Assembly: GCF_031458395.1 (NCBI RefSeq)
Contig: NZ_JAVDYJ010000001.1
Location: 2,542,001 to 2,606,000 of the forward strand
Origin: Enteractinococcus fodinae
GTDB lineage: Bacteria; Actinomycetota; Actinomycetes; Actinomycetales; Micrococcaceae
Direction: 5' to 3'
Length of the DNA: 64,000 bases
The notes under the pieces were generated by a model. It worked only from the letters and a program-made list of their open reading frames with translations, was not told the origin of the DNA and searched no databases. A program made the position numbers and the translations under genes. This document shows positions 38,195 through 48,547 of this stretch, in pieces; positions within the stretch are counted from its first letter, which is position 1; each line of letters begins with the position of its first letter.

Positions 38195-39121
38195 TTAGCG
38201 GTCCAGGATGCTGCGCACCCAGGCCCGACCGCGCTGGTAGGCCTCGTCGGTGGTGTATTCGGGGATCGTGTAATCGTGATGCTCGGCCCCCGGATACGAC
38301 CCGAGAAAACGCACCCCCGGGATCATCCGGTAGAGCGCAGCCAGGGCGGCACTGACGCGTTCTTCGACCAGGTGACCTTCTAGGTCAATGGAGAAAAAGT
38401 AGGTGCCCAAGGATTCGCCGGTTGGGCGGGACTCGATCCGGGTCAGGTTCACGCCGCGCGTGGAAAACTGGTCCATAATCTGCCCCAGCGCACCCGGTCG
38501 ATCTTCGGGCAGCGGCACAACCACCGAGGTTTTATCGGATCCGGTGGGCTCTGGCAGACTGCCGGCTTTGGCGACCACCACAAAGCGGGTGACTGCATCC
38601 GGGGTGTCTTCAATACCTTCGGCCAGGATCGGCAAGCCAAGATGGCGCGCTAAATGGGGCGCACAGACGGCCGCATCGTAGGTTGAGGAAGCATCCAGCA
38701 GCCCGTGCGCGCCGGCCGCTGTGGAGGCGGCTTGGACGAAAGCGGCATTAGGAATATTCGCCTCAGCCCAAATCCGAACTTGTGCCCAGGCGTGGGTGTG
38801 CGTGGCAACGCTGTGCAACTCGGGCAGACTCTGGGGCCCGTCCGGCCGACCGACCAGCACGAAACTAATGGGCACCAGCACTTCGCGGACGATGTGGAGT
38901 TCATCGCCGGAAGCGATCGCGTCCAGGGTTGCGGTGACGCCACCCTCGACCGAGTTTTCGATCGGGACGACAGCAGCATCCACTTCGCCGCTGCGAACCT
39001 GATTCAGCGCGGTGATGACCGAGCCCAGCGGAACATGATCCGCCCCGCGGGCTTCGGGCACGCGCTGCAGTGCGGCCTCGGTGAAGGTGCCTTCGGGTCC
39101 CAGATACGCAAACGTTTTCAT
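38195..39121 (-). CDS. pheA: Prephenate dehydratase
   Basis: A 308-residue monofunctional enzyme that makes phenylpyruvate from prephenate for phenylalanine synthesis. The catalytic domain opens with FAYLGPEGTFTEAAL and has PIENSVEGGVTATLDA and TRFVVVAK; the C-terminal ACT domain (about residues 205-285, with RPGALGQIMDQFSTRGVNLTRIESRP) binds Phe for feedback control. ATG eight bases after TAAGAT indicates a leaderless mRNA. It converges with the lipid kinase, three bases apart. Confidence 0.95.
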   Translation of the reverse strand: MKTFAYLGPEGTFTEAALQRVPEARGADHVPLGSVITALNQVRSGEVDAAVVPIENSVEGGVTATLDAIASGDELHIVREVLVPISFVLVGRPDGPQSLPELHSVATHTHAWAQVRIWAEANIPNAAFVQAASTAAGAHGLLDASSTYDAAVCAPHLARHLGLPILAEGIEDTPDAVTRFVVVAKAGSLPEPTGSDKTSVVVPLPEDRPGALGQIMDQFSTRGVNLTRIESRPTGESLGTYFFSIDLEGHLVEERVSAALAALYRMIPGVRFLGSYPGAEHHDYTIPEYTTDEAYQRGRAWVRSILDR

Positions 39122-39129
39122 GGTTGCCC

Positions 39130-39135
39130 ATCTTA
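39130..39135 (-). promoter_or_regulatory. -10 hexamer TAAGAT for leaderless pheA mRNA
   Basis: TAAGAT on the minus strand, eight bases before ATG at 39121. No ribosome binding site lies between. Confidence 0.5.
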
Positions 39136-39173
39136 CGTCAGGATCCCAAGGCCCCTGTCACCTCAGCCAAGGG

Positions 39174-39500
39174 TTAGCGCACGATGGGGTCGGCTCCGGT
39201 TTCGGAAACCAGTGGCTTGTCGGCTTCCAGCCAGGCCCCACACCCACCGGCTACGTTCACGGCCGAGTAGCCGTGCATTTCCATGTATTGGGTCGCGCGG
39301 GCGGAGCGCCCTCCGGTGCGACAGATGACGAAATAGTCGGTGTCGGGATCGAGTTCGTCAATGCGCAGTGGGAGCTGATCCAGCGGGATATTGAGGGCCC
39401 CCGGAATGTGTCCGGCATCGAATTCATACGGGTCGCGGACGTCGAGGATGTCAGCGTCGTCGGGTACGTCGTTTACGGTAAGGGTTTCAAAGTCGTTCAT
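39174..39500 (-). CDS. Single-domain rhodanese-like sulfurtransferase
   Basis: A 108-residue stand-alone rhodanese domain with the active-site C60 in VICRTGGRSARA and the flanking LDVRDPYEFDAGHIPGALNIP. Such proteins carry persulfide sulfur in cytoplasmic sulfur transfer or cyanide detoxification. The ATG at 39500 follows TACCAT by seven bases and is preferred to the upstream ATG at 39509, which lies inside that hexamer. It is divergent from the amidase gene and 52 bases upstream of pheA on the same strand. Confidence 0.88.
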   Translation of the reverse strand: MNDFETLTVNDVPDDADILDVRDPYEFDAGHIPGALNIPLDQLPLRIDELDPDTDYFVICRTGGRSARATQYMEMHGYSAVNVAGGCGAWLEADKPLVSETGADPIVR

Positions 39501-39507
39501 GTGGCCC

Positions 39508-39513
39508 ATGGTA
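39508..39513 (-). promoter_or_regulatory. -10 hexamer TACCAT for leaderless rhodanese mRNA
   Basis: TACCAT on the minus strand, seven bases before ATG at 39500. Confidence 0.45.
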
Positions 39514-39569
39514 AATCACCGAAACACTCGGCGACCAGCAAAACGGGACGTTTTACCCCCGATGGCGTA

Positions 39570-39575
39570 TACAGT
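39570..39575 (+). promoter_or_regulatory. -10 hexamer TACAGT for leaderless amidase mRNA
   Basis: TACAGT followed by six bases (GAAAGC) and ATG at 39582. It is divergent from the rhodanese promoter within an 81-base intergenic region. Confidence 0.5.
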
Positions 39576-39581
39576 GAAAGC

Positions 39582-40985
39582 ATGACTGAACACGATGCCA
39601 TCGCCTCGCTCACCGCCGCCCAGTTGCGGGATGCGATCGCCGCCGGTACCTATACTGCCCGTCAAGTCACCGAATACTATCTCGCTCAGATCAGCCGACG
39701 CACCGACCTTGGTGCCTTCATGGCGGTGCACGCCGATGCCGCCTTGGAACGGGCCGATGAACTTGACGCCGCGTATCAGTCGACGGGCGTAGTGGGGCCA
39801 CTGCACGGTCTCCCGTCGGCATTTAAGGACACCGTGAACGTGTCCGGGATGGTCACCACCTTTGGGTCAGAACTGTTTGCTGACTCGGCACCGCAGACCG
39901 AAGACGACCCGGTGTCGCTGAATTTCAATACTGCAGGCGCTATTCAGGTCGGCAAAACGACGATCCCGGAGTTCGCGTTGCCGTGTCACTCGGACAGCCG
40001 TATTTCCGATCCGGCCCGAAACCCGCTCAATACTGAGCTGACCGCGGGCGGGTCATCTGGTGGGGCAGCCGCAGCGGTTGCGGCCGGTTTGTTGCCGGTT
40101 GCCCCCGGAACCGACGGTGGCGGCTCTATCCGGATTCCGGCTGCGGCCACCGGCTTGGTCGGGGTCAAACCCGGACGCGGCACCATCCCCACCGACGAGC
40201 AACGCGATGACGTCACCAACCTGACGGTCACCGGTCCCCTGGCCCGCACCGTCGAGGATGCCGGTATGCTGTTGGACGCGCTGGTGGATCCCACACAGCA
40301 AAACGGTCGCTATCAAACCGCAGCCCAGAACGGGCGCGAGTCCGCCGGTGAGCTGAACATCGGCTACACCACGGCCTCACCGTTTCAACCCGATCTGAAC
40401 ATCACGCTCTCCCAGGCTGCCGTCCAAGCACTCACCCTGGCGGTGACGCTGCTGAGCCGCGACGGTTTAGCCATCGAAGAGATGGACTTTTCCTACCTGC
40501 CGGATTATCACCGAAACTTCCAAACCGTCTGGACCAATGGGCTCGCTTCCATGCCCTTGCCGGAGGGCGGCGAGGAACGCCTCGGCGCGTTAGCCAGAAG
40601 CTTCCTGGAGCAGGCTCGCGAGCGCACCCAAGAACAGTACGACGACGCCGTCACTGCGCTCACCGATTGGGCCAACGATACTCGGCGCACGTTTGCCGAC
40701 TACGATGTGGTCCTCACCCCGGTTCTGGCATTTACGCCACCACCGGTGGGCACTTTCTCGGCGATGCCACCGCAAGAAGACTACGAATACCAGTGCAAAT
40801 TCACCCCGTACACATCCATGATCAATGTGCTGGGGCTGCCGGCCATTTCGGTTCCGGTCAAAAACGATGACAACGGGATGTCGTGGTCGATCCAAGCGGT
40901 GGGGCGTGTTGGGACAGAAGATAAGCTGTTGCGACTTGGGGCACGACTAGAAGCACTCGTTGCGGCGCCGAAGCCGACAGAGTAA
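39582..40985 (+). CDS. Amidase signature family protein
   Basis: A 467-residue amidase-signature hydrolase. The Lys-cisSer-Ser triad is complete: K82 in SAFKDTVN, S158 in AGGSSGG and S182 in GTDGGGSIRIPA. It hydrolyses a carboxamide; natural substrate is unknown, and the family includes 6-aminohexanoate-cyclic-dimer and aryl amidases. It is not GatA by context, as no gatB or gatC is nearby. A much longer upstream frame is an artefact; the ATG at 39582 begins MTEHDAIASLTAAQLRDAI, a normal family N-terminus, directly after a -10 box. Confidence 0.88.
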   Translation: MTEHDAIASLTAAQLRDAIAAGTYTARQVTEYYLAQISRRTDLGAFMAVHADAALERADELDAAYQSTGVVGPLHGLPSAFKDTVNVSGMVTTFGSELFADSAPQTEDDPVSLNFNTAGAIQVGKTTIPEFALPCHSDSRISDPARNPLNTELTAGGSSGGAAAAVAAGLLPVAPGTDGGGSIRIPAAATGLVGVKPGRGTIPTDEQRDDVTNLTVTGPLARTVEDAGMLLDALVDPTQQNGRYQTAAQNGRESAGELNIGYTTASPFQPDLNITLSQAAVQALTLAVTLLSRDGLAIEEMDFSYLPDYHRNFQTVWTNGLASMPLPEGGEERLGALARSFLEQARERTQEQYDDAVTALTDWANDTRRTFADYDVVLTPVLAFTPPPVGTFSAMPPQEDYEYQCKFTPYTSMINVLGLPAISVPVKNDDNGMSWSIQAVGRVGTEDKLLRLGARLEALVAAPKPTE

Positions 40986-41590: not shown

Positions 41591-42472
41591 TTATTCTTTA
41601 TGCAGTTTGTCTTGAACGGTGCCGGCTATTTTCTCTGCCGCATTCGGTAATTCTGTGGTACCGAAAAGTCGGCTGTCCGGGTGTGTTGGGGCAGGCATCG
41701 GCGCGGAGGTGTCCGGCCCGTCGAGATAGGTAAATTCGCCGTGCCCATCTGGCGTCGGGCCTTCTGCCCAGGACCCTTTGGCAGCATCCTGGCCGTCCGA
41801 GAAGTTAATGTACTGATGCGACACGGGCGTATGCTCTTTGGAGCGCGGGAAGTTACTGGGCACTGGCAGCTGCTCGGCGCCTTCTTCTTGGAGTTCACGG
41901 GCCGCGGCAATCCATTGGTTTTGGTGCATGGTATCTCGGGCAAGCAGGAAGGAGAGCAGGTCGCGCACACCGGTGTCATCGGTCATGTGATAGAGCCGAG
42001 CGACTTGTAACCGGCCCTGCATCTCGGCGTTCGCGTTCGAAGTGAAGTCTGCTAATAAGTTTCCGCTGGCGGTGACATAGGAGCCACTCCACGGGTTGCC
42101 CATGCTGTCGACAGGACGGGCCCCTGCGCCAGAGACGATGGCGTGTTGCAAATCGGTGCCGCCGACAACGGCCGCCACGGCTGGGTCGGACTGGACGTCT
42201 TCATCGGTAATACCAAGTGGTGACTTCTCGAGCAGTTGGGCAATCATTTTGGCCAACATTTCGATATGGCCGAACTCTTCGGCGGCGATCCCGTAGAGCA
42301 GGTCTTTGTATTTACCGGGAATGTGGATGTTCCACGCCTGGAAGCTATATTGCATGGCAACGGTAATCTCGCCGTATTGTCCACCGAGGACTTCTTGGAG
42401 TTTGCGAGCATAGACCGCGTCGGGATGATCTGGGACTGAGTTGTACTGAAGTTCTTGTTTATGGAAAAACAT
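41591..42472 (-). CDS. Manganese catalase
   Basis: A 293-residue non-haem catalase with a ferritin-like four-helix core. Metal-binding Glu and His residues appear in YGEITVAMQYSFQAW and AAEEFGHIEMLAKMIA (about residues 62-77) and again in RDTMHQNQW. The C-terminal extension PEFTYLDGPD-type segment is typical of the family. It destroys hydrogen peroxide in the cytoplasm, independent of haem. GGGAGCG upstream of the ATG is a plausible ribosome binding site. The upstream DNA contains an extended inverted repeat that would fold in the mRNA leader. Confidence 0.93.
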   Translation of the reverse strand: MFFHKQELQYNSVPDHPDAVYARKLQEVLGGQYGEITVAMQYSFQAWNIHIPGKYKDLLYGIAAEEFGHIEMLAKMIAQLLEKSPLGITDEDVQSDPAVAAVVGGTDLQHAIVSGAGARPVDSMGNPWSGSYVTASGNLLADFTSNANAEMQGRLQVARLYHMTDDTGVRDLLSFLLARDTMHQNQWIAAARELQEEGAEQLPVPSNFPRSKEHTPVSHQYINFSDGQDAAKGSWAEGPTPDGHGEFTYLDGPDTSAPMPAPTHPDSRLFGTTELPNAAEKIAGTVQDKLHKE

Positions 42473-42497
42473 AACGTACGCTCCCTAAGATAGAGCA

Positions 42498-42547
42498 CAC
42501 AAGCACCCTGCAGGTGACTCTTCGGTCTGAGTTCACCGGCGCTTGTG
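42498..42547 (-). promoter_or_regulatory. Extended stem-loop in the manganese catalase leader
   Basis: Outer arms CACAAGC (42498-42504) and GCTTGTG (42541-42547) enclose a second pairing of GGTGACTC with GAGTTCACC (one bulged base). Read on the minus strand it lies about 25 bases before the catalase ATG. It could be a 5-prime mRNA structure or a protein-binding site; no known riboswitch consensus was recognised. Confidence 0.4.
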
Positions 42548-42654
42548 CTCGGTAGGCATCAGCGTAGTGACCCTGTTCAGGGGAGCAGAAGAGCTGAGAT
42601 ACAGTTTCAACCAGTACACAGGTAGTGCACAGCATCGAACATGAGGGGAGCCCC

Positions 42655-42789
42655 ATGGACACAGAGGACATCCGAAAGCGCCAGTCAGAGCTGGTTACCC
42701 GCTTATCGCAGCAGCTGTCGCCGCAAGAGCTTGCGGACGCCAGCCAAGAGTTAGAAGAGCTTGCCCGGCAACTAGAACAGCGCAACTAG
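42655..42789 (+). CDS. 44-residue coiled-coil small protein
   Basis: A short reading frame with GAGGGGAGCCCC directly before its ATG, a strong ribosome binding site. The product, starting MDTEDIRKRQSEL and ending ARQLEQRN, is wholly helical in appearance, rich in Gln, Glu and Leu with heptad-like spacing and no membrane segment. It is divergent from the manganese catalase gene. I recognise no family. The ribosome binding site and biased composition support it being real. Confidence 0.6.
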   Translation: MDTEDIRKRQSELVTRLSQQLSPQELADASQELEELARQLEQRN

Positions 42790-42866
42790 TGCCCATCGTC
42801 GAGTCGATTGTTCAACTCGCATGAGACGCGGCCCAGCGAGTCCTGCGCGTAGGGTGCGTGCTGGAG

Positions 42867-43496
42867 CTAGTCGACAAGTTCATCGTCTTGATCGATCCAT
42901 TCGATCTGCCACCGCTGTTGGGCTTCGTTATAGGTCAGTTCAGCCCACCAGCCCTCAAGCGTAGTTTCGGCGACACGCTCGTCCTCCACTAACTCGCCAT
43001 CCAGGTAGAAATCGCTGGCCGGTTCGGTCACGTTGAAAATGACCGCGGTCCACTCTTCTTGATTTTCTTCGTCGAGATAGGACTGGGTCTCGACTATTTC
43101 AATTTCTGTGGCTCCGTCGAGCGTTGCCCATGAGCCAGCGTCGTGGATCTGTTGCCATCGGAAGATCGATTCGGTGCACATATCGCACGTAAAATACGAA
43201 ACGCTCGCTGCAGGCTGGGCGTGACCGGTCTGTCGAACATAATCAATGCCCTCCCAGAAGTACTCCAGGGTCGCTTTGGCACCTTCCGGCGAGTTCTGCT
43301 GAGCGACCTCTGGAAGTTCCGGTTCGGCCACGTCTTGGGCAGATCCCTCCTCCGACTCGTGGGCTTCAAGCGGGACAATCTCCACTGTCTCTTCAAGTTC
43401 GAGGGGTTGGGCTTCTTGGGCTGTGCAGCCGACCAGAGCTGCGCTGAAAGTCATACCTGCTAGTCCGAGGAAACGGCTCGATTTTAAAGACGTCAA
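42867..43496 (-). CDS. DUF6318-like lipoprotein
   Basis: A 209-residue predicted lipoprotein. Starting at the TTG at 43496, six bases after AAGGAG, the protein begins with a short basic N-terminus, a hydrophobic stretch and a lipobox AALVGC, so the mature protein would be lipid-anchored at residue C24. The acidic Glu/Pro-rich linker is followed by a folded domain with EYFWEGIDYVRQTGHAQP and FTCDMCTESI, which resembles DUF6318 of Micrococcales. The CxxC pair may form a disulfide. Longer upstream frames lack a signal peptide and were rejected. Confidence 0.72.
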   Translation of the reverse strand: MTSLKSSRFLGLAGMTFSAALVGCTAQEAQPLELEETVEIVPLEAHESEEGSAQDVAEPELPEVAQQNSPEGAKATLEYFWEGIDYVRQTGHAQPAASVSYFTCDMCTESIFRWQQIHDAGSWATLDGATEIEIVETQSYLDEENQEEWTAVIFNVTEPASDFYLDGELVEDERVAETTLEGWWAELTYNEAQQRWQIEWIDQDDELVD

Positions 43497-43579
43497 CAAT
43501 AACTCCTTGTGTTGGATGTTCGTGGCTACTGCTGACGGTACTGTTCCCGGTGATTCGCGACTGCTTGCTGACGACAGAT

Positions 43580-43588
43580 TGTGGATAA
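43580..43588 (-). promoter_or_regulatory. Consensus DnaA box upstream of the lipoprotein gene
   Basis: TGTGGATAA on the plus strand (TTATCCACA on the minus strand), an exact DnaA-box match about 85 bases before the lipoprotein TTG start. Confidence 0.35.
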
Positions 43589-43702
43589 CCGCACCGAGGA
43601 GCCTCCCGATAAAGGTTTTCCACACGATCCGGTTATGAGCCGGCGGCAACTGCTGGATTGGTGCAGCATGGGTGCCAGAACGAACAACGAAAGGCATCAA
43701 CC

Positions 43703-43873
43703 ATGAACGCAATGACGACACACACCACGACGGCCACCGAGCAATACTTTTCATTCCCTGTCAGAAATGGCCAGGTTGATCTGGAAGCAGTCGCAAGTCC
43801 AGAGCTGGCTCGGTTGGTTTCGCATGTCCTGGGCATTTTGGCCGCCCGAAAAACCGAAGATGAGGCGTCCTAG
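43703..43873 (+). CDS. 56-residue hypothetical protein
   Basis: A short frame with GAAAGG eight bases before the ATG. After a Thr-rich N-terminus comes YFSFPVRNGQVDLEAVASPELARLVSHVLGILAARK, an amphipathic helical segment. No membrane helix, signal peptide or recognised family. It converges with the aldehyde dehydrogenase-like gene 24 bases away. Reality is supported only by the ribosome binding site and sensible composition. Confidence 0.5.
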   Translation: MNAMTTHTTTATEQYFSFPVRNGQVDLEAVASPELARLVSHVLGILAARKTEDEAS

Positions 43874-43896
43874 GCCGCCGTAGGAACGTCGGCCGA

Positions 43897-45318
43897 TTAG
43901 CGGAGTTTGTCGATGAACCGCTGCCCGTAGGTTGGGTCAGGCGGATACGCCGCCTGGAGGGTATCGAGCTGGGTGGGCTTATAGAAGTGCGTACGGTATT
44001 GCGAAAAGAGCCGGAAGCTCTCGTACCCGCCCCACGTGCCAAAACCGGCTGCCCCAGTGAAGTTATGGGGCATTGATGGCAGGGCTGCCTGAATGACGGT
44101 GACGTTCATGACGGCTGCACCCGCGTTAATCCGGTGCATAAAGTCCTTGCGGATGCGGCGTCGCTCGGAGAACAGGTACGCTGCCGGAGCGGTAGGTTTG
44201 GCATTGACGAGTTCGACGGCTTCCTCGTAGGTGTCCACCACGAGGATCGGCAGGATTGGCCCGAGAATTTGTTCTTGCATCACCGCCGAATTCGGGTGGA
44301 CATCAGCCAGGATGGTGGGGGCCAGAAACGCCGCGTCGGTGTGGTATTTTCCGCCGTAGACCAACCGGGCAGGGGTCGCATCGACTGATCCCTTGAGGGT
44401 GGCTTGAATGAGATCCACCAAATGTTGGGTGTGCTCGGACGTAATGAGGCGACCGTATTGCGTGGATTTGGCGGGAGTCGGTCCGTAGAACTCTTCAATC
44501 GCGTCGATAACAGCGTCTTTGACCTTCGCGGCGACATCATGTCCCACGGCTAATAAATAGTCCGGGCTGACCATGCTCTGCCCTGCGTTGGTGAACTTAC
44601 CGTAGGCAATCCGGCGTCCAATAGTTTTCCAGTCGCTGCCATCCACGACGATTACCGGAGATTTTCCACCCAGCTGTAATGTCACCGGGATCAGATGCTG
44701 AGCTGCGGTGGTGTAGACACGGCGCCCTAAACCTTCCGAACCGGTGAAAAATAGGTGATCCAGGGGTTGGGTTGCTAACTCATCGAGCGTCTCTTCGCCG
44801 CCGGTAACGGTGATAATAGACCGCGGGTTGAGATATTCCGGCAGCACCTTGCCCAACAGCTTGGCAGTGCGAGGGGTGTGCATCGAGGGTTTCAGCACTA
44901 GACAGTTGCCGGCCGCGACCGCTCCAACTAAGGGCGCCATCAACGTGTAGAACGGGTGGGTCCAGTTGCCCACGATGCCAACAATACCCAGCGGTCTGGG
45001 TTTCACCATGGCTTTGCCAGGCCGCAGCGCGTACGGGATCGATCGCGGCTGTGGTTCCATCCAGTCGGTCAGATGCAACATCGCATGAGCGATTTCATCT
45101 TTGACCGGCCAAAATTCCGTCTGATTCGTCTGAGCGGTGGACTTGCCAATATCATGCCATAAGGTGTCTTGAAGATCGGTCGCGTAATCTTCGAATAATT
45201 CACGCAGCCCCTTGAGCTGGTCCATGCGGTAGGAGCGCGAATGTGTTGCCCGGGTGGCGGCGAAGGCTCGCAGGTCTGCCATCCTGGCGGAGAGGGTTTC
45301 GTGGGCACCAGTGGTCAT
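43897..45318 (-). CDS. Aldehyde dehydrogenase-fold protein lacking catalytic residues (probable pseudoenzyme)
   Basis: A 473-residue class-3-like aldehyde dehydrogenase fold, complete from end to end. Fold motifs are kept (KPRPLGIVGIVGNW, AAGNCLVLKPS, FFTGSEGLGRR, LGGKSPVIV), but key residues are not: the WNYP Asn is T120 (WTHP); the KPSE Glu is M146; the LELGG general-base Glu is Q215 (LQLGG); the nucleophile Cys of GQTC is M249 (GQSM); the EEIFGP Glu is Q350 (EQILGP). I confirmed each substitution from the nucleotides. Dehydrogenase activity is therefore not expected. ATG 45318 is leaderless; the gene is divergent from a degenerate LCP gene. Confidence 0.85.
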   Translation of the reverse strand: MTTGAHETLSARMADLRAFAATRATHSRSYRMDQLKGLRELFEDYATDLQDTLWHDIGKSTAQTNQTEFWPVKDEIAHAMLHLTDWMEPQPRSIPYALRPGKAMVKPRPLGIVGIVGNWTHPFYTLMAPLVGAVAAGNCLVLKPSMHTPRTAKLLGKVLPEYLNPRSIITVTGGEETLDELATQPLDHLFFTGSEGLGRRVYTTAAQHLIPVTLQLGGKSPVIVVDGSDWKTIGRRIAYGKFTNAGQSMVSPDYLLAVGHDVAAKVKDAVIDAIEEFYGPTPAKSTQYGRLITSEHTQHLVDLIQATLKGSVDATPARLVYGGKYHTDAAFLAPTILADVHPNSAVMQEQILGPILPILVVDTYEEAVELVNAKPTAPAAYLFSERRRIRKDFMHRINAGAAVMNVTVIQAALPSMPHNFTGAAGFGTWGGYESFRLFSQYRTHFYKPTQLDTLQAAYPPDPTYGQRFIDKLR

Positions 45319-45325
45319 GTATTCC

Positions 45326-45331
45326 ACCGTA
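45326..45331 (-). promoter_or_regulatory. -10 hexamer TACGGT for leaderless aldehyde dehydrogenase-like mRNA
   Basis: TACGGT on the minus strand, seven bases (GGAATAC) before ATG at 45318. This supports the ATG over the GTG at 45327, which would lie inside the promoter. Confidence 0.55.
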
Positions 45332-45378
45332 CGTCACTTTTCGATCCCAATATTGAAGGCACCCTGGTCCAGGTCAGC

Positions 45379-45384
45379 TAGAAT
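45379..45384 (+). promoter_or_regulatory. -10 hexamer TAGAAT for leaderless LCP-like mRNA
   Basis: TAGAAT, seven bases (CCCAGAC), then ATG at 45392. It is back-to-back with the aldehyde dehydrogenase-like promoter, with the two start codons only 73 bases apart. Confidence 0.6.
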
Positions 45385-45391
45385 CCCAGAC

Positions 45392-46132
45392 ATGGCTGAA
45401 GCATCGCGACGTACCAAAATTTGGGTGTGGGTCATCGTGCTGACGCTGTTTGCTGGTGCCGCACTTTTTGCCGTCAATACGCTGCGGTCTAGCATGCAAC
45501 CGTTGGGTGTGCTCAATGATCCGTTCCCCGACGAACAGGCCCGCCCCGGAGGATCTGAAGCTGCCCGCGGGGCGGTGAATTTCTTGGTTTTTGGCGAAGC
45601 CGCCGCAACGCACCAGACGGTGTCTATTTTCCATCTGGCGGAAGGGCGCCGTCGTATTGATATCGTCAATTTTCCCTCGGATTCTGCTCACTTGAGCAAT
45701 ATCCAAGATGTCCCTGGCACGGTGCAAGAAGTCGAGGATCTGACCCAGGCCCGGATGGAACATGTGATGCTGTGGGATCTGGAATTCCTCACCGAACTTG
45801 AGTCCGCTGCGGTCACCGCAGAGGCCATCACTGCCGACCCCGAAGCTTTTGACGCCGATACCGTGTGGACCATGGTGCTTCAAGAAGCGCTCGACATACG
45901 GGACCCAGGCCAACTCAACACCCTGGCCGCAACCCTCACGCCCTATGTTGCCGCGGATGCGGGCCTCAACACCGGGCGGATCACCGACCTAGCTCGCTCC
46001 CTGCGCCATGTGTCCCCCGATAATATTGCGTCCTGCGAGCTTCCCACAGAACTTAGCGCAGCCGAACAAGATGCGCTCGCCAGGTACTTTGACCAGGGCA
46101 CTCCGCGGTGGTGCGCGCAGTTATTTGAGTAA
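45392..46132 (+). CDS. Degenerate LytR-CpsA-Psr (LCP) family membrane protein
   Basis: A 246-residue protein: basic N-terminus, one membrane helix (about residues 9-29), then an extracellular domain. VNFLVFGEAA, HQTVSIFHLAEGRRRIDIVNFPSD and MEHVMLWDLEFLTEL align in order with LCP landmarks (NFLLMGSD, RSDTMMLVH, SIPRD, the ligase core), and the segment around LNTLAATLTPYVAADAGL and DLARSLRHVS matches an LCP C-terminus. The Arg and Asp residues used by LCP enzymes to bind pyrophosphate and metal are absent (PSD for PRD, HQT for RSD). It is probably non-catalytic. Two Cys near the C-terminus may pair. Confidence 0.6.
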   Translation: MAEASRRTKIWVWVIVLTLFAGAALFAVNTLRSSMQPLGVLNDPFPDEQARPGGSEAARGAVNFLVFGEAAATHQTVSIFHLAEGRRRIDIVNFPSDSAHLSNIQDVPGTVQEVEDLTQARMEHVMLWDLEFLTELESAAVTAEAITADPEAFDADTVWTMVLQEALDIRDPGQLNTLAATLTPYVAADAGLNTGRITDLARSLRHVSPDNIASCELPTELSAAEQDALARYFDQGTPRWCAQLFE

Positions 46133-46148: not shown

Positions 46149-47102
46149 CTATTCGGGCAAGGTCAGGAGATGTTCGATCATTTCTGCGACGCCGTCATCG
46201 TCACAGGCCGGCGCAACGACATCGGCTTGGGCCAGTAGGTCGGGATGACCTGACTTCAACGCATATCCGGTGCCGGCCCAGCGCAGCATTTGTTCATCAT
46301 TGCGTTGATCGCCAAAAGCAACCACGTCGTTGGCATGGATGCCCAGGCTGGCCGCATAGTCCGCCAGGGTCGAGGCTTTATGCACATCCCCGCGGGAGAT
46401 TTCTAACAGTGCGACTCCGGGCACCGAGTGGGTCACTTGCACCAATGAGCCAAAGTGGGCCCGGACTGCCATGAGCAGCTCGTCGGGGTCGTGGCCATGA
46501 ACTTTGACCATCAATTTGACGACTTCGGGGTGCTCATCGAGTCGGTCGGTGATGTAGTCGGTTTCGATCCAGCGTGAAGACCGGACGGCGACGGTGTTGG
46601 TCGGTTCAGCGGTGGCGGCCACGACCTGATCGACTTCACGGGCAGCAGCACGAGCCGATGCCGGGATGAAATTGGGTTCCATGATGAGCCCGGTGAGGGT
46701 TTCGGCGCCAAAGATCGCTCCCGAAAAGAGGCCTCGCAGCTGGTTCGTCACATCGGCGACCAGGTGCTGGTCCATTGGGTGGGCTTCGAGCACTCGATCG
46801 GCGTTCATGTCATAAATCACGGCACCATTGGATACGATCGCCGGTCCCATCGGACCGAGCAGGGGCGCCAAAGCTGGCATCCACCGCATGGGACGCCCGG
46901 TGACAAACGCCACCCCGATTCCAGCCCCGATGGCCGCCGCAAAAGCCGCCAGGGTCCGCGGCGATACATACCCGGTGTGGGTTTCGGTGTACGGGATGAT
47001 CGTACCGTCCAGGTCTGTGGCGATCAGTTGTGGCCGCACCACCGGGTGACCGATCTCGTCGCGTTCGACTTCGGCACCGTGATGCGCCAAATGCTTAGGC
47101 AT
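46149..47102 (-). CDS. HAD-IIB family phosphatase
   Basis: A 317-residue HAD hydrolase. Motif I DLDGTIIPY (about residues 31-39), VTGRP with the motif II Thr, a IIB cap, and motif III/IV VAFGDQRNDEQMLRWAGTGYALKSGHP are intact. A 28-residue N-terminal extension is present. AAGGAAAGGAAG provides a ribosome binding site. Substrate unknown; it is the second Cof-type phosphatase in the window. It is divergent from the NCS2 permease and converges with the LCP-like gene. Confidence 0.87.
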   Translation of the reverse strand: MPKHLAHHGAEVERDEIGHPVVRPQLIATDLDGTIIPYTETHTGYVSPRTLAAFAAAIGAGIGVAFVTGRPMRWMPALAPLLGPMGPAIVSNGAVIYDMNADRVLEAHPMDQHLVADVTNQLRGLFSGAIFGAETLTGLIMEPNFIPASARAAAREVDQVVAATAEPTNTVAVRSSRWIETDYITDRLDEHPEVVKLMVKVHGHDPDELLMAVRAHFGSLVQVTHSVPGVALLEISRGDVHKASTLADYAASLGIHANDVVAFGDQRNDEQMLRWAGTGYALKSGHPDLLAQADVVAPACDDDGVAEMIEHLLTLPE

Positions 47103-47209
47103 GCAGGCTTCCTTTCCTTACCCAAGAATGTTAGCGCGGATTGGTGCCGCAGGGGTCATTAGTTGGTAAAGTCTTGCTGGCAACGAATACCGGTGTGACA
47201 GGAGCCGTA

Positions 47210-48547
47210 ATGGCAGCATCTTTCCGCAAGCGATGGGGTTTGGCCTGGGATATTCACGGGGATGGGAAATCCATCACCCCCGGCGAGGTGGTCAAACCGG
47301 ATGAGCGGTTGGCAGCACCGCAAACCATCGGGATCGGTTTACAACACGTGATGGCCATGTTTGGCGCGACCGTGCTGGTGCCCGCGCTGACCGGTTTTCC
47401 ACCGACGGCGGCGCTGTTCTTTTCCGGGATCGGTACGTTATTGTTCTTGATCATTACCAAGGGCAAGGTGCCCAGTTACCTGGGTTCCTCATTTGCGTTC
47501 ATCGCCCCGCTCACCGCAGCTACCTCCATGCATTCGATTGGTGCGGCCTCGGGCGGGATTCTGGTCACCGGTGTTGCGCTGGTGATCATCGGGTTCATCG
47601 TGCATAAGGCCGGTACCCGATGGATTCATGCGGTCATGCCACCGGCGGTCATGGGCACCATTTTGGCGCTGATTGGGTTGAACCTGGCCGGGGCAACCAC
47701 TGACGGCATGCAAGAGGTCCCGTTGACCACCTTCGGGACCACGGCGGCCGTGATCATTGCAGCGGTGCTCTTCCGGGGCTTTCTGGGGCGGTTATCCATC
47801 CTGATCGGCATTGTCGTTGGCTATCTGCTGGCGCTGGCACAGGACGAAATTGATTTCCAGCCGGTCGCCGACGCCGCATGGATCGGGCTCCCCGCCTTCC
47901 ACACGCCCGAATTCCGGTTCGATGTCTTATTCTTATTCCTACCGGTGGTGTTCGTACTGGTTGCCGAAAACATCGGGCATGTGCGCACGGTCGGTCTCAT
48001 GACCCACAGGAACTTGGATCCGCATAACGGCCGGGCGCTGATCGGCGATGGGATCGCGACCATGCTGTCCGGGACCGGCGGTGGCGTGGGGACCACCACC
48101 TATGCCGAAAATATCGGGGTCATGGCGTCCTCGAGGATTTATTCGACGGCTGCCTACTGGATCGCCGGGTTCGTGGCGATATGCCTCGCGTTCTTCCCGA
48201 AATTTGGTGCGCTTATTGCGACCATTCCGATGGGGGTAGCCGCCGGGGCGGGCATTATTTTATACGGCATGATCGGGATCATGGGCGCCCGCATCTGGGT
48301 CAACAACAAGGTGGATTTCTCCAACACCATCAACCTCATGGCCGCCGGCGCGGGGCTGATCATCGCCATCGCCGATCCGGTCATTGACATAGGCGGCATG
48401 CAATTCGGTGGCATCGCGCTGGGGACCATCGCCGTGTTGGGCATCTATCACATCATGTCGGCCATTGCCCGGTGGCGCGACACCGCACCCATCGAACAGC
48501 TCGACGACACACCGGCCACCGTCGGTGGGCCCGGTCGCGTCGAATAA
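47210..48547 (+). CDS. Uracil/xanthine permease (NCS2 family)
   Basis: A 445-residue transporter with about 12-14 membrane helices. The NCS2 features are seen: LQHVMAMFGATVLVPALTGFPP near the N-terminus, SSFAFIAPLTAA, and the signature VFVLVAENIGHVRTVGLM with the key Glu, followed by GDGIATMLSGTGGGVGTTTYAENIGVMA. It is closest to uracil permeases (UraA/PyrP type) by these motifs. It imports a nucleobase with protons. The ATG at 47210 has AGGAG five to six bases upstream; upstream frame extension is not supported. Confidence 0.92.
   Translation: MAASFRKRWGLAWDIHGDGKSITPGEVVKPDERLAAPQTIGIGLQHVMAMFGATVLVPALTGFPPTAALFFSGIGTLLFLIITKGKVPSYLGSSFAFIAPLTAATSMHSIGAASGGILVTGVALVIIGFIVHKAGTRWIHAVMPPAVMGTILALIGLNLAGATTDGMQEVPLTTFGTTAAVIIAAVLFRGFLGRLSILIGIVVGYLLALAQDEIDFQPVADAAWIGLPAFHTPEFRFDVLFLFLPVVFVLVAENIGHVRTVGLMTHRNLDPHNGRALIGDGIATMLSGTGGGVGTTTYAENIGVMASSRIYSTAAYWIAGFVAICLAFFPKFGALIATIPMGVAAGAGIILYGMIGIMGARIWVNNKVDFSNTINLMAAGAGLIIAIADPVIDIGGMQFGGIALGTIAVLGIYHIMSAIARWRDTAPIEQLDDTPATVGGPGRVE

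Follow-up and report, generated by a model that had tools for sequence, protein, structure and literature searches.

Several proteins are known that keep the fold of an aldehyde dehydrogenase (ALDH) without its activity, among them the omega-crystallins of the cephalopod lens and the ALDH-superfamily domain of some PutA proteins, which is fused to proline dehydrogenase; inactive ALDH2 occurs as a population variant. Here we describe a free-standing bacterial case, a pseudo-ALDH related to the class-3 enzymes, which is encoded in a window of 64,000 nucleotides (the whole stretch of DNA analysed) from Enteractinococcus fodinae, a member of the Micrococcaceae (contig NZ_JAVDYJ010000001.1, positions 2,542,001 to 2,606,000). 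Judged from its sequence and those of its relatives, it is very probably a selected non-catalytic protein. The nearest bacterial precedent that we found comes from GRM1 microcompartment loci with two aldehyde dehydrogenases (AldDHs), where an inactive enzyme is kept beside an active one in the same locus; the accessible part of that report describes the replacement of the catalytic Cys by Ser or Pro in one of the two, suggests a role as scaffold or regulator, and reports a change of the Cys only (PMC4207490). Accessible parts of other sources describe human ALDH16A1, a superfamily protein lacking the entire catalytic triad that is thought to act via protein binding (PMC10650815, PMC8160307), and a large added non-functional C-terminal domain in ALDH16, presented along with a bacterial ALDH16 structure (PMC8160307). 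As far as the available text of a further source goes, inactive ALDH2 chains depress the activity of their active partners within heterotetramers, and in the AdoMetDC and TbPRMT1 prozymes an inactive chain modulates an active one by heteromerisation (PMC10211241). An earlier sequence-only reading of the window had put such proteins down as having no described function; with the ALDH16A1, GRM1 and ALDH2 cases in print, this was too strong.

The protein of E. fodinae can be set against each of these systems. It resembles class-3 ALDHs such as ALDH3A1 (dimeric, NADP-preferring; 3sza, 1ad3) over residues 10-463 (297.7 bits by sequence) and shares with them the Gly and Pro residues of the fold and the NAD-site Lys, whereas the Cys, the general-base Glu, the oxyanion Asn, the Glu of KPSE and the Glu and Phe of EEIFGP are all replaced. 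Unlike the second AldDH of the GRM1 loci, it is a class-3 chain unlinked to its active paralogue (1.8 Mb away), it has lost the whole active site, and it has intact positional orthologues in sister genera; no shell-protein family was found among the window neighbours scanned with Pfam. The second, C-terminal pseudo-ALDH domain of the ALDH16A1 type is absent from the single chain of 473 residues, which has one PF00171 stretch. Nor is there a fusion to proline dehydrogenase, which we take to define the PutA type: the gene is free-standing and encodes only PF00171. Omega-crystallin being a lens protein and the PutA domain part of a fusion, neither is a free-standing bacterial class-3 protein. The AdoMetDC and TbPRMT1 prozymes have folds unrelated to that of ALDHs, and a heteromer of the pseudo-ALDH is a proposal only. 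In the literature searched, which left most subscription papers out of reach, neither a class-3 pseudo-ALDH nor any pseudo-ALDH in Micrococcaceae was described. ALDH pseudoenzymes as a kind are known; what appears to be new is the conversion of a class-3 enzyme at the ancestral locus.

The gene (Table 1) is an intact, full-length reading frame of 473 codons without an internal stop, just as the sequence-only reading had it. PF00171 matches residues 18-443 (E 5.5e-66; 223.4 bits against a gathering cut-off of 23), which places the protein in the ALDH superfamily, and a sequence comparison with solved structures puts class-3 ALDHs nearest (9pxh, E 1.4e-90; human ALDH3A1 3sza, E 1.5e-87; 1ad3). 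Its motifs read WTHP, KPSM, LQLGG, GQSM and EQILGP, and the five replacements named earlier (T120, M146, Q215, M249 and Q350) are all present at these residue numbers. Additional losses in the area of the active site are F352 to L, Y121 to H, L114 to G, the PFGG stretch at 417-420 and YH to WG at 429-430. From the codons of the relatives, the minimum is one base change for Asn to Thr, Glu to Gln and Phe to Leu, two for Glu to Met, and two or three for Cys to Leu, Ile or Met.

Seven of the nine Enteractinococcus genomes searched carry the pseudo-ALDH without internal stops, namely that of E. fodinae and six others at 75-84% identity, including Enteractinococcus helveticum (84%) and E. coprophilus (83%). 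The remaining two genomes are 88% and 71% complete, and the amidase of the locus is present in both; since the neighbouring HAD gene was not found there either (at E ≤ 1e-60), the locus was probably not assembled and its absence says little. The T/M/Q/M/Q pattern seen in the window carries over to the genus in part: M146, Q215 and Q350 are fixed in 7/7 proteins, as is L352, but position 120 is Thr in five and Ala in two, and position 249 is Leu in five, Met in one and Ile in one, so that variation at these two sites stays within small or aliphatic side chains. Among 295 Micrococcaceae genomes (9 of them Enteractinococcus) searched at E ≤ 1e-100, 119 had a match, 7 within the genus and 112 outside, and 112/112 relatives outside the genus are intact, with the Asn, the KPSE Glu, the LELGG Glu, the nucleophile Cys and the EEIFGP Glu and Phe (the latter pair on the nicotinamide side). 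No dead relative outside the genus was found in these 295 genomes, in 396 genomes of the order (E ≤ 1e-105) or in 394 of the class (E ≤ 1e-110), sets that partly overlap and thresholds below which more divergent dead proteins would escape; the 10 non-genus matches from the order and the one from the class (L191, the gene of G038, which is L087) lie among the 112 intact relatives. A scan of viral contigs yielded four distant ALDHs, one of which was used as an alignment row.

The losses go beyond the named motifs. Of the 124 positions conserved in at least 95% of the relatives, 28 are lost in all seven dead proteins; the seven share 48 invariant residues that occur in at most 1/112 relatives. 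We also checked 18 motif residues in rat ALDH3 numbering, which we take to be a conserved set: 11 of them (Arg, Gly, Pro, Asn and Lys, that is, Lys143 of the NAD site and 10 fold residues) are unchanged in 7/7, and the other seven (N, C, E, F, G, E and E, with Gly420 among the losses) are changed in 7/7. The NAD-site Lys is not universal even in the intact relatives, being Ser in 11/112. Read against these relatives, the pseudo-ALDH lacks the catalytic triad together with a large part of the nicotinamide and ribose side of the NAD pocket, and it has kept the residues of the fold.

That the protein is nevertheless maintained can be seen from the ratio of nonsynonymous to synonymous substitution rates (dN/dS; Nei-Gojobori), which lies between 0.024 and 0.106 in all 21 pairs of the seven genes; dS approaches saturation in the majority of them. 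Where it is least saturated, the ratio is 0.024 (L020-L021, dS 0.93) and 0.047 (L017-L018, dS 0.83); in the same two genome pairs dN is 0.059 and 0.102 for the active paralogue, about 2.6 times higher than the 0.022 and 0.040 of the dead gene. All seven proteins agree at 303 of 473 positions. The loss of the catalytic motif thus goes together with purifying selection, and because the loss is common to 7/7 loci of the genus and dN/dS is this low, a selected non-catalytic role, already proposed from the sequence alone, is well supported. A gene in decay, or a mistake in assembly or sequencing, would fit the long stem branch and the many conserved residues lost, but this explanation is already refuted by seven separate genomes without internal stops and a dN/dS near 0.05.

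In the tree the seven dead rows form one clade (100/100) with a stem of 1.46 changes per site and inner branches of 0.02-0.13. This clade sits inside the active Micrococcaceae clade, although its closest genus is not settled (fork 81/57, open forks). At least two of four markers (HAD, NCS2, prephenate dehydratase and amidase) are shared with the window in nine of the ten relatives' loci examined, the tenth (L076) sharing none. Because of these shared neighbours the pseudo-ALDH is the positional orthologue of the intact enzyme and not a side copy, and catalysis was lost in place, on the single long stem branch of Enteractinococcus. The five losses had been called independent, which is not shown, as all of them fall on one stem branch.

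The sequence-only reading had suggested looking for an active paralogue, and one was found. The genome of E. fodinae has 15 other ALDH-like matches, of which the nearest to the pseudo-ALDH is the intact class-3 enzyme L002 (34% identical). Enzymes of the L002 type occur in 8/9 genomes of the genus and were not found in G007, which is 71% complete. With L002 as probe over 100 genomes of the family (E ≤ 1e-80, with scoring limited to 16 candidates in each genome), two class-3 matches, the L002 type and the dead one, were present in 5/5 Enteractinococcus, whereas among 95 other genomes 57 had a single match, 38 had none and 0 had two; judged from coordinates, 42 of those 57 matches coincide with the gene picked up by the dead protein as probe. 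When the threshold was E ≤ 1e-130, 6/6 genus genomes drawn had the L002 type, as against one (G013) of 114 others, and among 325 genomes of the class (E ≤ 1e-125) other matches of this type were limited to 11 genomes from two genera of other families (45-47%). In the tree L002 groups with one of these outside genera and G013, with a long-branch warning. Since two matches mark 5/5 of the genus and 0/95 of its relatives, and given the distribution and tree of the L002 type, Enteractinococcus carries an extra class-3 ALDH, probably gained from outside.

The reading that we favour is a displacement. Enteractinococcus would have gained an extra class-3 ALDH, probably from outside the family; this L002-type enzyme would have taken over aldehyde oxidation and so freed the resident ALDH to turn into a pseudoenzyme, which would most likely act by non-catalytic binding, perhaps joining or regulating the active class-3 enzyme much as a prozyme does. 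A heteromer with L002 or a regulator of it is favoured because the human class-3 structures that rank among the nearest by sequence are named as dimeric and because both traits mark the same genus. We give this reading as a whole a probability of about 0.4. A stricter form of it, in which the resident at the ancestral locus would be an obligate non-catalytic subunit or allosteric regulator of the gained enzyme, that is, a bacterial prozyme that arose by displacement, we regard as rather unlikely.

Several points weigh against a partnership that followed displacement. That gain came first and catalytic loss later is a supposition. The grouping of L002 with a genus from elsewhere rests on long branches and includes G013, a genome of the same family, so that horizontal gain is only moderately supported. 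The pseudo-ALDH (2.586 Mb) and L002 (0.786 Mb) are encoded far apart and are 34% identical. Invariance is no more frequent at the formerly conserved positions than elsewhere (17/28 against 303/473, p 0.69); on average these positions were re-fixed rather than left drifting, yet they are not singled out, and since their invariance equals that of the rest nothing marks a new site exactly at the old conserved positions. An AlphaFold2 model from a shallow alignment (window, L044, L045, L192) had a mean predicted local distance difference test score of 48.7 and a predicted template modelling score of 0.43, too poor for a reading of the fold or the dimer surface. Finally, a sensory role is nearly as likely as a role as partner of L002.

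As such a sensor, the protein would stand alone, its old aldehyde or cofactor cleft binding a metabolite without turnover and signalling or buffering independently of L002. We consider this possible, if somewhat doubtful. The retention of Lys143 in all seven proteins speaks for it, and several of the 48 genus-specific invariant residues are aromatic (Y45, W54, Y124, Y364, W429, Y441 and Y446), which is what one might see if the cleft or the surface had been remodelled. However, the loss of Glu146, Glu350 and Phe352 would argue against ordinary NAD binding, and the neighbours scanned include neither an output domain nor a directly adjacent regulator. Less probable still is a structural or scaffolding (moonlighting) protein whose surface contacts some protein different from L002, such as the membrane protein encoded divergently from it. 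The divergent gene adjoins the pseudo-ALDH in 7/7 loci with a nearly constant gap and is itself conserved, and a scaffold or regulator role was proposed, in the accessible part of the report, for the Cys-less ALDHs of GRM1 loci (PMC4207490). Against this, G024 has a relative of the membrane protein near an intact ALDH with other genes in between, so that the pair does not track the loss. It is improbable that the protein is still an enzyme with a migrated nucleophile or a different chemistry: Ser251, two residues past the lost Cys, is fixed in 7/7 where 112/112 relatives have Ala, but the only Cys in 6/7 proteins, C139, is also found in 11/112 intact relatives, and the general base, the oxyanion Asn and the nicotinamide contacts are all lost together.

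Table 1. Coordinates, within the window, of the pseudo-ALDH gene, its replaced codons and the neighbouring features
Feature	Coordinates	Strand	Basis
Pseudo-aldehyde dehydrogenase, 473 aa, ATG start at 45318	43897..45318	minus	ORF, PF00171, structure-sequence match
Codon 120, ACC, Thr; oxyanion Asn in active relatives	44959..44961	minus	position counted from ATG
Codon 146, ATG, Met; KPSE Glu in active relatives	44881..44883	minus	
Codon 215, CAG, Gln; general-base Glu in active relatives	44674..44676	minus	
Codon 249, ATG, Met; nucleophile Cys in active relatives	44572..44574	minus	
Codon 350, CAA, Gln; EEIFGP Glu in active relatives	44269..44271	minus	
Codon 352, CTC, Leu; EEIFGP Phe in active relatives	44263..44265	minus	
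Gap between divergent start codons; possible promoter region, no consensus site; 73 bp	45319..45391	none	72-73 bp in 7/7 genus loci
Divergent 246-aa protein, hydrophobic N-terminus, at most distantly LCP/LytR-like	45392..46132	plus	adjoins pseudo-ALDH in 7/7 genus loci
HAD-family phosphatase, syntenic marker common to active relatives' loci	46149..47102	minus	Pfam, locus comparison
NCS2 nucleobase permease, syntenic marker	47141..48547	plus	Pfam, locus comparison
Amidase, syntenic marker	39081..40985	plus	Pfam, locus comparison
Prephenate dehydratase (PDT), syntenic marker	38195..39121	minus	Pfam, locus comparison

The pseudo-ALDH had also been credited with its own promoter. This found no support, as a scan for sigma-70-like sites, which covers no other promoter types, found 0 in 43500-45600 (shuffles mean 0.9). 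The divergent protein across the gap is conserved at 56-66% identity among the seven loci; it has no Pfam match at E ≤ 1, and the model of the LCP glycopolymer transferases gives a weak match to one of its seven members (E 0.031). This may be an LCP protein in degenerate form, and perhaps another pseudoenzyme. In G024 its relative lies at L079:15829-16701, and open reading frames read as a branched-chain amino-acid-type ABC transporter operon stand between it and the intact ALDH; with that relative near an intact enzyme, we dropped the idea that the divergent gene arose together with the catalytic loss. Of three intact relatives' loci that we read, all three have a phosphoglucomutase-like gene facing the ALDH, and in two a glycerophosphodiesterase-like gene precedes it (genes named by reading).

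The interval between ALDH and amidase differs among genomes and is possibly a local insertion hot spot. It holds a manganese catalase here (41591-43873) and, in E. helveticum (L069:10856-14082), what reads as an alkylation-repair set with an ECF sigma factor and Ada/MGMT-like, AlkB-like, Tag-like and AlkA-like proteins. The amidase itself has about 195 N-terminal residues ahead of its Pfam domain, overlaps the prephenate dehydratase frame on the opposite strand by 41 bp, and matches as two or three pieces in 4/6 other loci of the genus.

For annotation the case carries a caution, in that a match to PF00171 can be enough for a protein to be called a dehydrogenase, its active site left unchecked. 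For the family, it offers the states before and after a loss of catalysis at the same chromosomal locus in sister genera, with the loss on one branch and the protein strictly maintained afterwards. With a second class-3 enzyme, an intact one, characteristic of the same genus, the question of how an enzyme becomes a non-enzyme is here directly testable, and so is the question whether the pseudoenzyme partners its replacement, in bacteria that can be cultured (type strain E. coprophilus DSM 24083).
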